A DNA stretch of 64,000 nucleotides from Polyangiaceae bacterium (GTDB lineage Bacteria > Myxococcota_A > Polyangia > Polyangiales > Polyangiaceae): positions 1 through 64,000 of the forward strand of contig JABFXY010000066.1 of NCBI GenBank assembly GCA_013361525.1. The letters are read 5' to 3'. The position numbers were made by a program, and so were the translations under genes. Position 1 is the first letter of the stretch; each line of letters begins with the position of its first letter. Below are positions 29,024 through 35,004 of the stretch, one piece after another. Under the pieces are notes generated by a model, which searched no databases, had not been told where the DNA came from, and worked only from the letters and a program-made list of their open reading frames with translations.

Positions 29024-31261
29024 CTACTTCTTGGAAGGCAGCGCGCAGCGGAAGCCGATGCCGTGGGCGGTGGCGGTCTCTAGTTGGTGGTAGCGGAAGG
29101 CGGGGTTGACCCAGAATTCCTGGGCGCCGTTGAAGGCGCCGCCTCGGATGGCGCGGCGGTCGCCGGCGGCGGCGCCTATCGGGTCGACCTGATCGTCTTT
29201 CTTGTAACTCTCGTATCGATCGTTGGTCCATTCCCAGACGTTGCCGACCATGTCGAAGAGGCCGAACTTCGTCACGCCCGAGGTGAAGGTGCCGACGGGC
29301 GCGGTGCCGGCGTAGCCGTCGTCCGCGGGGAACATCGTCTCCTCGGTCGTCTTCAGGCCTTTGGCCTTCTCCCAAGCGAGGTATTCGGTGCCGGCGGCGT
29401 TCATGTGCTTTTCGGTGCCGACCTGATCGCCCCAGGGGTACTTCCGGCCGTCGGCGCCGCGGGCTGCAAACTCCCATTCGGCTTCGGTGGGGAGGCGGCC
29501 GCCCTTCCATTTGCAGTAGCGGTCGGCCATGTCCCACGAGACGCAATTGACCGGGTGTTTCTCGCGGCCGGGCTTGATTTTGCCCTCTTCGGCGAAGTTG
29601 CAGAACTCGGCAAATGCCTGCTTGTTCTTCTCGTGTTGCTCGGGAGTCGTCTTTTCGCTCTTCGGGTAATCCGGAACGATGGCGGCGCGCTTGCACTCGC
29701 CCTTTTCGACGCAGTCTTTGTATTTCTCGGTCGTGACCTCATAGAGGTCGATGCAATAAGGCGACAGCGTCACCTTGTGCTCCGGCTGCCAGAGGGGGAA
29801 GCCGGGGTCGTTCGAGCCCATGAAGAACTTGGCGTCGGAGATGAGCGCCATGTCCGCCGGGCAGCTGAACGGCGGCGGCGCCGCGGCGCTGTTCGTCGCG
29901 GGCGCGGAGACTGCCGGCGCCGCCGAGTCGTCCGCGGCGCTCGCCGATTGCGGCGGCTCCTTTTTCCCGAACACCATATATGCGCCGAATGCGCCGCCGA
30001 TGAGCGCGACCGCGGCGATCGACCCGAAGACGATGGCGCCGGAGCCTTTTTTCGGCGCGGTCGAGGACGTCATCCCCGCATTGGTCGAGCCGCCCGCGAA
30101 GAGCGGTGTGGTCGGCGCGCTGGGGTATCCGCGTGACGCTGGCCCGGTATCGATGACGGTGCCGCCGGCCTGATTGGTCATCGGCGTCGACATCCGGGGG
30201 CCGGTCATCATCGCATTGGGCACCGAGAGGCGACCGCCGCCCGGTGTCGTCTGCGGCGAGGCGAATGCCGCTGCGCTCGCGCCGCCGCCGACGGTGACCG
30301 GCGACCAAATGGGGCTGCCGGGGAACACCGCGGCGTGCAGCTCGGACCAGAACTCGCCGGCGGTCTTGAAGCGATCGCGCGGGGCGATCGATAGAGCGCG
30401 GAGGAACACGCGCTCCACGTCGTCGGTCACGTCGACGCCGAACGCGCGCGGCGTCGGCCGCACCGTCGGATCACGGCTCGCGACGGCGAGCTGGATGTAA
30501 TCGTCGCCTTGCAGCGCCGGGTAACCGCCGCGCAACAGCTCCACGATGATGAGGGCGAGCGCGAAGACATCGGTCCACGGACCCGTCGCGCCGTGAGCGC
30601 GGCTGAATTGCTCGGGCGCGCCGTAGTTCGGCGTGAAGGCGGTGATCTCCTTACCCGTCATCGCGAGCGAGGTCTGCAGCTGCGCCTGCTCGGCCATCAC
30701 CTTCGCGATGCCGAAGTCGAGGATCTTCACGAAGGCGCTCGGGCCACGCGGATCGCCGATGACGAAGAGGTTCGCAGGCTTGATGTCGCGGTGAGCGATG
30801 TTCTTTGCGTGCGCGACCTCGAGGGCGCTCGCCACCGACTCGAGCATCGCGAGGATGTCGAAGATCGTGCGCGGCGGCATGTGCTGCTCGCGCTCGAGGT
30901 AGAGGATGCGGTCGAGCGGTCGGCCCTCGAGCCACTCGAGCACCATGAACGGGATCTGATCGTTGGTGCGCGGCGCGGTGAGTGTCCCGACGTCGCGGGC
31001 CTGCACGATGGCGGCGGTGCGCGTCGAGAGCTCCTGCATCAGGCGGCCCTCTTGGATGAACCCCTTCAGCAGCTCGTCGCGCATCTGCGCGGGGACCCCG
31101 GCAAGCGCGTTGAAGCACTTCAGGGCGACGGGCTGCTTCCAGATGAGGTGCTCGGCCTTGTAGACGACGCTGAAACCACCTTCGCCGATCACGGCGTCGA
31201 CGCGGTAACGGCCGTCGATCGTCGTGCCGACGATTCCGAGCGGATCGGGGGAGGCGGTCAT
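29024..31261 (-). CDS. Ser/Thr protein kinase with C-terminal SUMF1/FGE-like domain
   Basis: 745 aa. Kinase domain about 15-305: P-loop GEGGFSVVYKAEH, VALK lysine, HRDIKPANLF catalytic loop, LDFGIAK, APEQF. A Pro/Gly-rich region and a TM helix (IVFGSIAAVALIGGAFGAYM, about 425-444) follow. The C-terminal 290 residues are a SUMF1-like fold (FFMGSNDPGFPLW, NCVSWDMADRYCKW, GRLPTEAEWEFAARG, VWEWTND, GFRCAL). The segment where true formylglycine-generating enzymes carry active-site Cys reads FNGAQEFWVNPAFRYH with none, so it is probably non-catalytic, perhaps a periplasmic sensor. It starts 12 nt after the MNIO gene and is likely cotranscribed. Confidence 0.92.
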   Translation of the reverse strand: MTASPDPLGIVGTTIDGRYRVDAVIGEGGFSVVYKAEHLIWKQPVALKCFNALAGVPAQMRDELLKGFIQEGRLMQELSTRTAAIVQARDVGTLTAPRTNDQIPFMVLEWLEGRPLDRILYLEREQHMPPRTIFDILAMLESVASALEVAHAKNIAHRDIKPANLFVIGDPRGPSAFVKILDFGIAKVMAEQAQLQTSLAMTGKEITAFTPNYGAPEQFSRAHGATGPWTDVFALALIIVELLRGGYPALQGDDYIQLAVASRDPTVRPTPRAFGVDVTDDVERVFLRALSIAPRDRFKTAGEFWSELHAAVFPGSPIWSPVTVGGGASAAAFASPQTTPGGGRLSVPNAMMTGPRMSTPMTNQAGGTVIDTGPASRGYPSAPTTPLFAGGSTNAGMTSSTAPKKGSGAIVFGSIAAVALIGGAFGAYMVFGKKEPPQSASAADDSAAPAVSAPATNSAAAPPPFSCPADMALISDAKFFMGSNDPGFPLWQPEHKVTLSPYCIDLYEVTTEKYKDCVEKGECKRAAIVPDYPKSEKTTPEQHEKNKQAFAEFCNFAEEGKIKPGREKHPVNCVSWDMADRYCKWKGGRLPTEAEWEFAARGADGRKYPWGDQVGTEKHMNAAGTEYLAWEKAKGLKTTEETMFPADDGYAGTAPVGTFTSGVTKFGLFDMVGNVWEWTNDRYESYKKDDQVDPIGAAAGDRRAIRGGAFNGAQEFWVNPAFRYHQLETATAHGIGFRCALPSKK

Positions 31262-31273
31262 GTCGTCAACATC

Positions 31274-33088
31274 CTATCCGCACTCGTCGCGGCGTTCCGA
31301 AGGTTTGGTGTCGATCACGGCGGGCGCGGGCGAGGTCGAATCGCAAACGCTCGCCGAAGGCGCAGTGCCGAGCAAGATACCCCGGTCGGCATAGTCGGCC
31401 AGAACACGGGCGAGATCGCCCAGCAGCTCGGGCGCTAGCGCGACGTTCGCACGTTCGCACGCACCGACGATGGCATCCCGCAGGATTCGCCGATCGAGCA
31501 AGCGCTCGACTACATCCGCGACGAGGCTCGAGAGCTCGAGGGTCCGAAGCTCATGAGCGGCATCCCGATAGACGAGGAGAGCCGTTGGTCGCGCGGGCAA
31601 CGTTCGGGCACCCGCCGCGAGCTCGTGAACCGGGTGCCCGTACCGGGAGAGGCGCACGGATTCGTCGAAATAGACCGGCCCTTCGAGCTCCAATTTCGCT
31701 TCGATCGTGGCGCGATCCGGCGCGGCGGGAGGGCGCAGCGCCGCCGCGGACTCGAACGCGACGAGCTCGTGACGAGCGAGCTCCGCCGCGAAAGGGGGAA
31801 CGGAAACATCCGCTTCCCAGCGCGGGCCGATGAACCTGACGAACTCGAAAGGTACGTCGCGCAGGTAATGGGACGACGGCAACGCGTCGGCGACGAACGC
31901 GTCGATGTCCGCGTCGAAGCGATCGCCGAGGAGCTCGTGCGTCCTCGGCAGCTCGCTTTGGATGACGCTCCGCAGCGTGCCGCGAACCAGGTGGCGGTAC
32001 ACGAACCAAGCCTGGTCGTCGATCGCGGCGAGGCTCTCGGCGTCGCGTGTTTGGAGCCCCCTGCCCTCGATCGAACCCACTCGATCCGCTGCACGCTCCT
32101 GCATCGCTTGCGGCTCGGTGATCGAGGCGACGACGATCTCGTACAGAGGGGCGAGCCGCGCGCTCGGCGCCTTCGCCCGGCGCCGTACCTCGCGCTGCAC
32201 GACGGCGCCTGACCGCTTCGCGAGAGCGCGATCGTAGATCGCTCGTACGCGCCTGAGCTCGACGAGCAACGTGTCGAGCGGCGGAACGTGGCTGTCGCGC
32301 TCGAGAATGACAGGGACCGGGCCGATGGCTTCGATGACGTGCTCGAGGAGCGCGAGCACACCCGGCGGCGCGTCGGCGCCGTGGGTGTCGATGATCCGCC
32401 CGTGCTGCGGCCGATATTCGTGTCCCGCGACATGAATTTGCACGACGCGGTCGAGCGGCAGCGCGTCGATGAACGCCTCGGCGTCGAAGCCGAAGTTCTT
32501 CGCGTTCACATAGACGTTGTTCACGTCGAGGAGCAGGCCGACGTCGGCCTCTTCGGCGATGGTGCGGATGAAGTCCGCTTCGTTCATCTCGGAAGCGCCG
32601 GGCCGCACGTAATACGAGATGTTCTCGATCGCGAGGGGACAGCCGAGCCTGTCGCGCATCTGCCGCGCGCGATCCACGACGTGCGTCACCGCCTCTTCGA
32701 GGAAGGGGATCGGCAAGAGATCGTGCACGAGCTTGCCGTTTGCGCCGCCGAAGCAAAGGTGGTCCGAGTGAAAAGGCGCGCCGACGTCACGCACGAAGGC
32801 CGCGAGGCTTCGCACGTAGGAATCGTCGAACGGGTCGAGCCCACCGAGCGACATCGTGAGCCCGTGCGACAAGATCGGGACAGCTTCCCGGATCTCCGAG
32901 AGCGCAGCGGGGATGTAGCCGCCGCGCCGCATGTAGTTCTCCGGGCAGACCTCGAAGAAGTCGACCGGTAGCGCGGGGGCTTCGCCGCGCACGGACGCGA
33001 GGACGTCCTCGAGGAAGGACCAACGCAGGCCGAGCCCAACGCCGCCGCGCGGCGCATTCGTCGATCCGTTCGAGGACGTCGTCGTCAC
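31274..33088 (-). CDS. Fused MNIO (DUF692) oxidase and DUF2063 partner, RiPP-modifying enzyme
   Basis: 604 aa, GTG start. Residues about 15-290 are a DUF692/MNIO multinuclear iron oxidase of TIM-barrel type with its metal ligands visible: FFEVCPENY, ILSHGLTMSLGG, HSDHLCF, AIENISYY, LLDVNNVYVN, QIHVAGHE, DTHGADAP and LERDSHVP. Residues about 310-560 match DUF2063 (BufC/HvfC-type partner: LQTRDAESLAAIDDQAWFVY, LPSSHYLRDVPFEF). In bufferin/HvfABC systems these are separate B and C proteins that modify Cys of a small precursor; here they are one chain. The gene 21 nt upstream encodes a Cys-tailed peptide, the likely substrate. Confidence 0.88.
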   Translation of the reverse strand: MTTTSSNGSTNAPRGGVGLGLRWSFLEDVLASVRGEAPALPVDFFEVCPENYMRRGGYIPAALSEIREAVPILSHGLTMSLGGLDPFDDSYVRSLAAFVRDVGAPFHSDHLCFGGANGKLVHDLLPIPFLEEAVTHVVDRARQMRDRLGCPLAIENISYYVRPGASEMNEADFIRTIAEEADVGLLLDVNNVYVNAKNFGFDAEAFIDALPLDRVVQIHVAGHEYRPQHGRIIDTHGADAPPGVLALLEHVIEAIGPVPVILERDSHVPPLDTLLVELRRVRAIYDRALAKRSGAVVQREVRRRAKAPSARLAPLYEIVVASITEPQAMQERAADRVGSIEGRGLQTRDAESLAAIDDQAWFVYRHLVRGTLRSVIQSELPRTHELLGDRFDADIDAFVADALPSSHYLRDVPFEFVRFIGPRWEADVSVPPFAAELARHELVAFESAAALRPPAAPDRATIEAKLELEGPVYFDESVRLSRYGHPVHELAAGARTLPARPTALLVYRDAAHELRTLELSSLVADVVERLLDRRILRDAIVGACERANVALAPELLGDLARVLADYADRGILLGTAPSASVCDSTSPAPAVIDTKPSERRDECG

Positions 33089-33109
33089 TGCCGCGTCCGT
33101 TTCAGGCCG

Positions 33110-33526
33110 TCATCCGCAGGATCCCTCACCGCAGGATGCGGCGGCGCCGGGCTTCTTCGCGCCCTTCTTGGTTCCGGTCGCGGCCGCAGGCTTCTTCGCC
33201 GGAGCCGGCCCGCTGGCGGGCGTCGCAGAGGCTTTCGCCGTCCCCGAAGCCGAGGCAGGAGCCGCTGCAGCAGCGGAAGCAGAGCCCGACGCAGCGGCGG
33301 TCGCCGTCTCCGCGGGCGCAGTCGTGTCGGACGCAGCCTCACCCGTCGTCTCCGCGATGTCTTGTTCCGCAGCGGTCGCCGTCGCCTCCGCCTTCGGCTC
33401 GCTCTCGACCTCCGTCGAGTTCACCGGCGTCTGCGAGCTGCTGCAGCCGGCGACCACCGCGACGGCACCGAGGCTCAACGTGCCGAGGGTCGCGAGGGTT
33501 TCGGAGATCGTCTTCAAGTTCAACAT
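33110..33526 (-). CDS. Probable MNIO-RiPP precursor lipoprotein with C-terminal CGEGSCG
   Basis: 138 aa from ATG 33526, preceded by GGAAGGA; a frame extension to 33565 is rejected. The signal peptide (TLATLGTLSLGAVAVVAGC) has a lipobox, so the Cys is predicted to be lipidated. The middle is Ala/Ser/Thr/Pro-rich and then Lys-rich (KKGAKKPG), an extended leader or spacer. The C-terminus is AASCGEGSCG, close to the EGKCG-type core motifs of DUF2282 bufferin/HvfA peptides whose Cys MNIO enzymes oxidise. Upstream of the fused MNIO gene by 21 nt. Modification and metal binding are inferred. Confidence 0.72.
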   Translation of the reverse strand: MLNLKTISETLATLGTLSLGAVAVVAGCSSSQTPVNSTEVESEPKAEATATAAEQDIAETTGEAASDTTAPAETATAAASGSASAAAAAPASASGTAKASATPASGPAPAKKPAAATGTKKGAKKPGAAASCGEGSCG

Positions 33527-33618: not shown

Positions 33619-34548
33619 TCACTTCGATGGTTTCGACGGCCCCGCGGAAACGGACGCACCGGCCGATGCAGATGGCCCCGCGGATGCGCTCGCAGCGGCC
33701 GAAGGCTCCGCGGTAGGCGCCATGGGCACCGCGTCGGCGGTCATCGGCGCAGCCGCCGTGCCGCCCTCGGGCATCAATCGAAGCTCGAATTCCACCTGCG
33801 CCTCTTTGGCGACCTTGGAGCCGAGCGCATCGAGCGTCTTCGCTGCGAGCTTTCCGAAGCCTTCGCGAGGCCGAACGTCGTGCTCGGCGAGCCCCACGCC
33901 GAATGGGGAGACCGTCTTCAGCCGCAGCTCGCTGATCTTGTCTCCGTCCATTTTGAACGTCGCCTGCATATCGACCGTCTTTTTGGTCGTTCGCTTGTGC
34001 AGGAGAAAGTCGCCCTTCGCCTTGAAGGTCACGGTGCGCTCGGCGCCCTGAAGCTTGGTGAGGTCCTTCTCGCTGAGGCCCTCGATGCTGTCGATCTTGA
34101 ACTCGACGCGGCTGTTCTCCTTGCGGTCTTTCTCCGGCGCGCTCTCGTCGATCTCGAGCCACTGGCGGGCGTGTTGGTTCTGCTTCGGGTGCTCTTGCTC
34201 CGCCTTGAAGTTGCCCTCGTCGTCCTTCACGGTCTGGTAGAGCTTCAGCTTGTCGATATCGACGACGATGTTGCCGGTCGTCTGCGACAGATCCTTCGGA
34301 TCGATGAAAATCGAGCCTGAAACGGCTTGGATCGCCTTGCCGCGGATCTTCTCGTCCGGCGCATCCATGTTGAAGCCGACCATGCTCGCGCCGGTGTCGA
34401 CGCCGTACGGCTTCGCGTCCTTCGTCTTCGCAGAGCTCGCGCCGAGCGCGCTTCCGCTCGCTTCGGGGGCGAGCTTCGTTTCGTCGCCACAGCCCGACAG
34501 CGCGCCGACCGTCAATAACGCACCGAGCAGCAACCAACACCTTCGCAT
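33619..34548 (-). CDS. YceI-like lipoprotein
   Basis: 309 aa from ATG 34548 with AAGGAG 7-9 nt upstream. Lipobox ALSGC. Residues about 45-260 resemble the YceI lipocalin-like beta barrel: VDTGASMVGFNM, AVSGSIFIDPKDLSQ, FKIDSIEGLSEKDL, RTVTFKAKGDFLLHKR. YceI proteins bind isoprenoid or fatty amides in the envelope; the ligand here is unknown. The tail (about 265-309) is Ala/Ser/Pro low complexity. It stands 93 nt upstream of the RiPP precursor gene and may belong to the same transcript. Confidence 0.75.
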   Translation of the reverse strand: MRRCWLLLGALLTVGALSGCGDETKLAPEASGSALGASSAKTKDAKPYGVDTGASMVGFNMDAPDEKIRGKAIQAVSGSIFIDPKDLSQTTGNIVVDIDKLKLYQTVKDDEGNFKAEQEHPKQNQHARQWLEIDESAPEKDRKENSRVEFKIDSIEGLSEKDLTKLQGAERTVTFKAKGDFLLHKRTTKKTVDMQATFKMDGDKISELRLKTVSPFGVGLAEHDVRPREGFGKLAAKTLDALGSKVAKEAQVEFELRLMPEGGTAAAPMTADAVPMAPTAEPSAAASASAGPSASAGASVSAGPSKPSK

Positions 34549-34701
34549 GGTCGATCTCCTTGGCTTTCGGTCTCGTTCCCCGACAACCCGAGCCCGTTCC
34601 ACCGGCCAACGATACGCGCGAGCCTCGATCTGGTTCGCAGGAAAATGTACACGAGTGAGCTTGTGTACCAAGCCGTCACGTGCCATGCGTCACGCATCCG
34701 G

Positions 34702-35004
34702 ATGATCCGCGGCTTCGCAGCGCTGTGTGCGGCAGTCGTCTTGATGACGGCCTCGTGCAAGACGGACAAAGAGTGCCGCGAGTCTTGTTTCTGCTCGCTG
34801 CGCGGAGCGTGCGCGGCCAAGGGCAACGAGTGCAAGGCGACGGAGAAGGAGCACTGCCTCGAGTCGCAGGTCTGCGCGACGATGGGCCACTGCACGCCCC
34901 AAGACGGCAAGTGCGTCGCCGCCTCGGACACGGACTGTCAGCGCTCGGAGCTGTGCACCAAGGCGGGGCGTTGCACGATGAAGGCGGGGCGCTGCACCCG
35001 TTGA
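34702..35004 (+). CDS. Small Cys-rich lipoprotein
   Basis: 100 aa from ATG 34702 (MIRGFAALCAAVVLMTASC); upstream in-frame starts exist but spoil the signal. Lipobox LMTASC. Thirteen further Cys with regular spacing (CRESCFCSLRGAC, CKATEKEHCLESQVC, CTKAGRCTMKAGRC) suggest short tandem disulfide modules of about 20 residues. It is divergent from the YceI-like gene. Function unknown. Confidence 0.65.
   Translation: MIRGFAALCAAVVLMTASCKTDKECRESCFCSLRGACAAKGNECKATEKEHCLESQVCATMGHCTPQDGKCVAASDTDCQRSELCTKAGRCTMKAGRCTR

Follow-up and report, generated by a model that had tools for sequence, protein, structure and literature searches.

The closest described relatives of the locus considered here are MNIO systems whose precursors carry EGKCG-type motifs, and the characterised EGKCG products bind copper. 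The precursor HvfA contains the sequence AEGKCGEGKCG, and FonBC, studied on EAKCGEGKCG, acts only when two repeats are present, tolerating A, R or T ahead of the Cys and, behind it, small residues only. The lipidated MNIO RiPPs DybA and NedA were published in November 2025 together with a cluster of CxxxxC lipoproteins, and NedA, a lipidated EGKCG precursor, is tri-acylated with a change of -4 Da per motif (PMC12636315). A family of CxxxxC precursors had been published in July 2025; 54% of its clusters include a Lactamase_B_2 gene, and DoxX belongs to the core (PMC12452194). An engineered HvfBC fusion is highly active, more so than the co-expressed separate proteins (PMC13419390). Here we describe a locus of the order Polyangiales in which the enzyme encoded alongside probably turns the seven residues at the tip of a predicted lipoprotein into a group that binds copper, an order-wide variant that was earlier only hinted at.

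The locus lies in a stretch of 64,000 nucleotides (the window; contig JABFXY010000066.1, assembly GCA_013361525.1) from a Polyangiaceae bacterium whose 11.9-Mb genome holds four MNIO genes. The precursor gene A (33110..33526, minus strand), conserved order-wide, encodes a 138-aa lipoprotein composed of a signal peptide, an Ala/Pro/Lys spacer and a C-terminal CGEGSCG. The lipoprotein signal peptide MLNLKTISETLATLGTLSLGAVAVVAG (33446..33526, minus strand) precedes Cys28 of the lipobox VAG↓C28, which was recognised by pattern only, and the tip motif occurs once, at the terminus, its codons (33113..33133, minus strand) including the two Cys that are the presumed modification sites. An ISETLA.LG stretch in the signal peptide is found again in relatives and may also act as a leader. 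The tip, AASCG-EGSCG, reads as a degenerate pair of EGKCG-type 5-mers, EGKCG itself not being present, and on this reading the precursors of the HvfA/oxazolin/captophorin group appear to be the nearest relatives of A. The first-pass annotation of this DNA had likened A to the DUF2282 precursors. That likeness did not hold: no family among the Pfam and NCBIfam profiles matched A, and DUF2282 was absent at E<1 even among weak hits. A DUF2282 or bufferin assignment was rejected on this basis, and A is better described as EGKCG/HvfA-like. The annotated coordinates, lengths and 21 nt gap between the genes were all borne out, with both genes on the minus strand, and the predicted lipid anchor agrees with the lipobox of A and with a lipoprotein pattern in 75 relatives.

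The fused enzyme BC (31274..33088, minus strand; 604 aa, GTG start) begins 21 nt on from A. Profile searches matched its front part to the MNIO TIM barrel (PF05114, E=6e-91, residues 16-284; 32237..33043, minus strand) and its partner part, over the respective cut-offs, to DUF2063 (E=7e-8, 33.1 bits, residues 357-420; 31829..32020, minus strand) and the RRE-type domain NGO1945_C (E=9e-10, 39.3 bits, residues 478-566; 31391..31657, minus strand), the pair of domains expected of a PME type 1 partner, upholding the DUF692-DUF2063 fusion that had been claimed for this chain. In the NCBIfam ranking HvfB came first with 278 bits (cut-off 360) and BufB second with 266 bits, and HvfC matched the rear part with 93 bits (cut-off 142); as all three equivalog cut-offs were missed, BC is HvfBC-like yet outside the curated equivalogs. 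The nine tri-iron ligands are present (H75, H110, E155, D188, N191, H219, D234, H236 and E263 by alignment), as had been read from the barrel motifs, and are the alignment counterparts of the ligands given in the literature for TglH (H71, H107, E151, D184, N187, H216, D229, H231, E258) and VcMbnB (H55, H91, E135, D165, N168, H194, D209, E238). These positions are invariant in 94 aligned rows, with one N191H as the sole exception. The AlphaFold model, which covers the whole chain, reaches a mean pLDDT of 89 and a pTM of 0.88, and its barrel superposes on the HvfB-like structure 3BWW (Z 29.1, rmsd 2.1, 246 aligned) as well as on TglH and MbnB (Z 25-29 across the three). Structure searches with this model gave barrel matches only, so that the partner domains rest on Pfam.

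An MNIO match to BC was present in 151 of 184 genomes of the order, and relatives in named records include an uncultured delta proteobacterium bin (47% identity) and a Polyangiaceae MAG. A script detected an upstream lipoprotein whose C terminus carries a CGxGxC tip at 75 of 86 MNIO loci (the 86 being those with sufficient upstream DNA, including a few near-duplicates), and inspection by eye added three (L031, L111 and L029, the last with a degenerate CGAAAC). The consensus of the tip across the order is CG[A/E/Q]G[T/S]C[G/A/S]; exactly two Cys, those of the tip, are found in 35 of the 75 precursors, and up to nine in the rest. Across 108 genomes of the family, a DNA pattern of tip plus stop gave 66 matches, compared with 17 for the reversed pattern, and an MNIO lay directly downstream of 38 of the 66. 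Together these counts argue that the association of tip and MNIO is not due to chance, and the near-obligatory A-B order agrees with the enzyme-substrate pairing predicted in the first-pass annotation. A search specific for lysine in the tip matched only the paralogue in the window genome itself. Conservation was weak in a naive alignment of precursor N-termini anchored on the lipobox, because the ETLAALG-like stretch sits at a varying distance from it. At L031 the precursor carries three AEGKCGG-like repeats and terminates in GKCGEGTCG; on its sequence it is a transitional form linking these proteins with EGKCG precursors. At L046 (the same locus as L014 921-1449, match strand), about seven EAGSCGA-type repeats precede a CGEGTCG tip, an expansion of the core. 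Besides BC, the window genome has three other MNIOs. Locus L042 (contig C14) contains a tandem pair of 8-Cys lipoproteins (KGKGGCK-type, Buf2-like) with genes for B and C after them, and loci L043 and L044 (contigs C56 and C51) have distant MNIOs in long frames of 477 and 734 aa; the C51 enzyme is preceded by a lipoprotein ending in NNKRGWGINRAACGRG.

At most loci of the order, B is a separate gene with C close behind. Fused B-C genes occur in the window genome, G171, G071, G107 and the near-identical loci of G123/G094, and also in three genomes of other families within the class. A quick FastTree tree of loci from the order, with many weak forks, places the order's fusions at no fewer than four separate points. 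In the unfused congener G170 the B stop and C start overlap as GTGA, a layout in which one small indel could be enough to fuse or separate the two genes. The fusion is a recurrent, convergent local variant and not a hallmark of the system, and being convergent it says little on function. The first-pass description of B and C as one polypeptide is borne out as a natural fusion; as the mark of the system it fails, most loci being unfused. The survey of fusions next to tip lipoproteins likewise divided, the lipoproteins being conserved order-wide and the fusion limited to some loci. A sequencing artefact was rejected as the origin of the fusion, since fused frames occur in several unrelated genomes and Pfam finds both domains. 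Two other candidates were also discarded: loci seemingly without C, where C proved to be convergent on the other strand, and a kinase-C fusion at L067, where the frame has no kinase domain. In one subclade (L032, L033, L034, L048, L055, L060, L066, L067, L076 and L090), C is convergent with B and a short Lys-rich tail follows the tip. The near-identical fused loci L038 and L039 belong to genomes of two assigned genera (G123 and G094), which points either to a recent transfer or to one bin being contaminated.

Conservation extends beyond the compact two-gene operon first described: the unit comprises a YceI-like lipoprotein, A, B(-)C and a Ser/Thr kinase that carries an FGE-like domain. The YceI-like lipoprotein gene (33619..34686, minus strand; likely true start near 34548) scores 23.3 bits, just under the 23.7 cut-off, and is found directly upstream of A in approximately 40 loci. 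Adjoining it in the window is a divergent 119-aa lipoprotein-like ORF with repeated Cys and no Pfam match (34645-35004, plus strand). The kinase gene (29024..31261, minus strand; kinase, TM and FGE-like domains) lies 12 nt downstream of BC, and kinases of this architecture, with a C-terminal FGE-like domain, follow C in approximately 30 loci at 42-79% identity. Its orthologues also occur apart from any MNIO in many genomes of the family, so the link between kinase and MNIO is clade-limited. Alignment to the human FGE chain (RGGAFNGAQEFW vs KGGSYMSHRSYC) shows that both active-site Cys are absent from the FGE-like domain, and a catalytic copper FGE was rejected on this basis; the S in KGGSYMSHRSYC, a mutant entry, we take to be the first Cys position of FGE. 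No DoxX-like gene or cluster was found among the conserved neighbours of the order loci, as the absence of a DoxX-type D gene noted earlier had implied.

The window locus is itself without a classical copper gene, and the link to copper is provided by paralogues. A second tip lipoprotein of the window genome, ending in CGEGKCG and with no adjoining MNIO, lies on contig C167 (L118 4778-12377) between two multicopper oxidases, and nearby are a P-type ATPase with an HMA domain and an ECF sigma factor ending in CGSCAEGGGCFDCTC. This sigma factor calls to mind CorE, the copper-dependent factor of Myxococcus xanthus, which senses copper through a C-terminal Cys-rich domain and controls copA, copB and cuoB. 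Stand-alone tip lipoproteins (HGAQMSCGEGSCG) are also found in five species of another genus: four of them (G149, G150, G151 and G153) have the lipoprotein with a CopA-like ATPase and a sigma factor, a second copy in G153 accompanies a multicopper oxidase, and the copy in G154 accompanies a multicopper oxidase, an outer-membrane efflux protein and an RND pump. The presence of stand-alone CGEG[SK]CG lipoproteins in copper-resistance clusters of the window genome and five relatives is the best evidence for a copper role, and is in keeping with the metal buffer that the first-pass annotation had predicted. In five of six pairs of stand-alone and MNIO-linked precursors, all five from the one other genus and one of them joining two species (G152 and G153), the signal region (KSIYETLAALGA) is 73-91% identical and the tip is kept, with the spacer at 40-52%; the pair of the window genome is too diverged for this contrast (signal 30%, spacer 28%). 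A signal region and tip that are retained while the spacer drifts suggest that the signal region also serves as a leader.

We consider it likely that A is a lipid-anchored copper buffer in which BC turns both tip Cys into 5-thiooxazoles. A would be a Sec/SPII-exported lipoprotein in which AASCGEGSCG forms a minimal EGKCG-type core with two sites. BC would bind A in the cytoplasm through its partner domain, which may recognise the N-terminal part of A and, within it, probably the region of the signal peptide. The iron cluster of BC would then take four electrons from each of the two tip Cys, most likely yielding 5-thiooxazoles. Export and lipidation would leave the modified tip at the end of a long, flexible spacer, either periplasmic or at the outer membrane, where it is predicted to bind copper, making A a tethered copper buffer. 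The tip satisfies the FonBC rules in its two repeats and in the residues flanking each Cys, and its layout is that of the FonBC and HvfA substrates; by this analogy a two-site core with a change of -8 Da is the simplest prediction. The residue before Cys is S (often T) and not K, and in most relatives A replaces E, so the product may differ.

Three other readings start from the same loci. The tip might be modified in the service of another metal or of redox or sulfur stress, for example thiol scavenging, with copper incidental. The YceI-like and kinase neighbours in the window are not copper genes, and, according to Antoine et al., MNIO products should extend beyond copper; however, the same kind of lipoprotein recurs in stand-alone form in copper clusters and copper is what the characterised EGKCG products bind, and we judge this reading unlikely. 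Still less probable is that A is no substrate at all and CGEGSCG a plain thiol or disulfide metal-binding tail, the MNIO modifying something else. Tip lipoproteins without an adjoining MNIO do exist, but the A-B order is nearly obligatory across the order, the tip closely matches known EGKCG substrates, and genomes with stand-alone copies also have an A-B-C locus; we give this explanation very little weight.

The kinase invites a different proposal, namely a signalling module in which the extracytoplasmic FGE-like domain reads the modified tip, free or metal-loaded, and so informs the cytoplasm of the copper or redox state of the envelope. FGE folds bind Cys-containing peptides, and a domain lacking both active-site Cys is consistent with binding over catalysis; the position of the kinase immediately after BC, repeated in some 30 loci, also favours it. 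Yet many tip loci are without the kinase, its orthologues occur away from MNIOs in many family genomes, and kinase-FGE fusions are common in myxobacteria, which leaves signalling improbable, slightly more so than use of another metal. A wider version, in which envelope copper signalling runs across the Polyangiales and a lipid-anchored thiooxazole tip serves as ligand for a neighbouring receptor-type Ser/Thr kinase whose FGE-like sensor domain is non-catalytic, is a shade more doubtful again.

The copper-buffer reading would extend the thiooxazole copper-peptide class to a whole myxobacterial order in a minimal form, two Cys on a lipid-anchored stalk. The natural B-C fusions are the counterpart of the HvfBC fusion used for spectroscopy and would supply single-chain enzymes that need no engineering and have a very small core substrate. 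From the stand-alone precursors found in copper clusters, modification in trans is predicted.

Compared with known systems, the locus shares with HvfABC, FonABC and gonophorin (oxazolin/captophorin) an HvfB-type MNIO, a DUF2063-RRE partner and a precursor, here predicted to be exported, with xxxCG-EGxCG pairs, but differs in its single C-terminal pair, the Ser/Thr before Cys, the long lipoprotein spacer, the lack of DoxX, the fusion of B and C, and the YceI-like and kinase-FGE neighbours. As in the DAG-RiPPs (NedA, a lipidated oxazolin, and DybA; Chen et al. 2025, PMC12636315), a lipoprotein signal peptide is combined with a C-terminal motif predicted here to be MNIO-modified, although NedA has three EGKCG repeats in place of one C-terminal pair. 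The CGEGSC sequence literally fits the CxxxxC lipoproteins of Cluster X (PMC12636315), compared by description only. The CxxxxC precursor family (Antoine et al. 2025, PMC12452194), likewise compared by description, also has a signal peptide, CxxxxC spacing, and MNIO and DUF2063 partners, whereas neither Lactamase_B_2 nor DoxX is a conserved neighbour here. The bufferins Buf1 (DUF2282) and Buf2, some of which are lipidated, resemble this system in the MNIO and DUF2063 chemistry and the copper role that are predicted here; unlike them, A has neither a DUF2282 match nor a 4- or 6-Cys bufferin domain. The engineered HvfBC (PMC13419390) also has B then C in one polypeptide, but was made by hand and without a linker, whereas the fusions here are natural, have a longer linker and arose more than once. 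The distinct variant claimed at first, a lipid-anchored modified-Cys peptide, is therefore a variant, but lipidated MNIO RiPPs and a CxxxxC lipoprotein cluster had already been reported in 2025. What is new here is a captophorin-like system that spans the order, has a minimal tip and is predicted to be lipid-anchored; at some loci its B and C are naturally fused, its YceI/kinase neighbourhood is conserved, and copies of the precursor without an adjoining MNIO sit in copper clusters.
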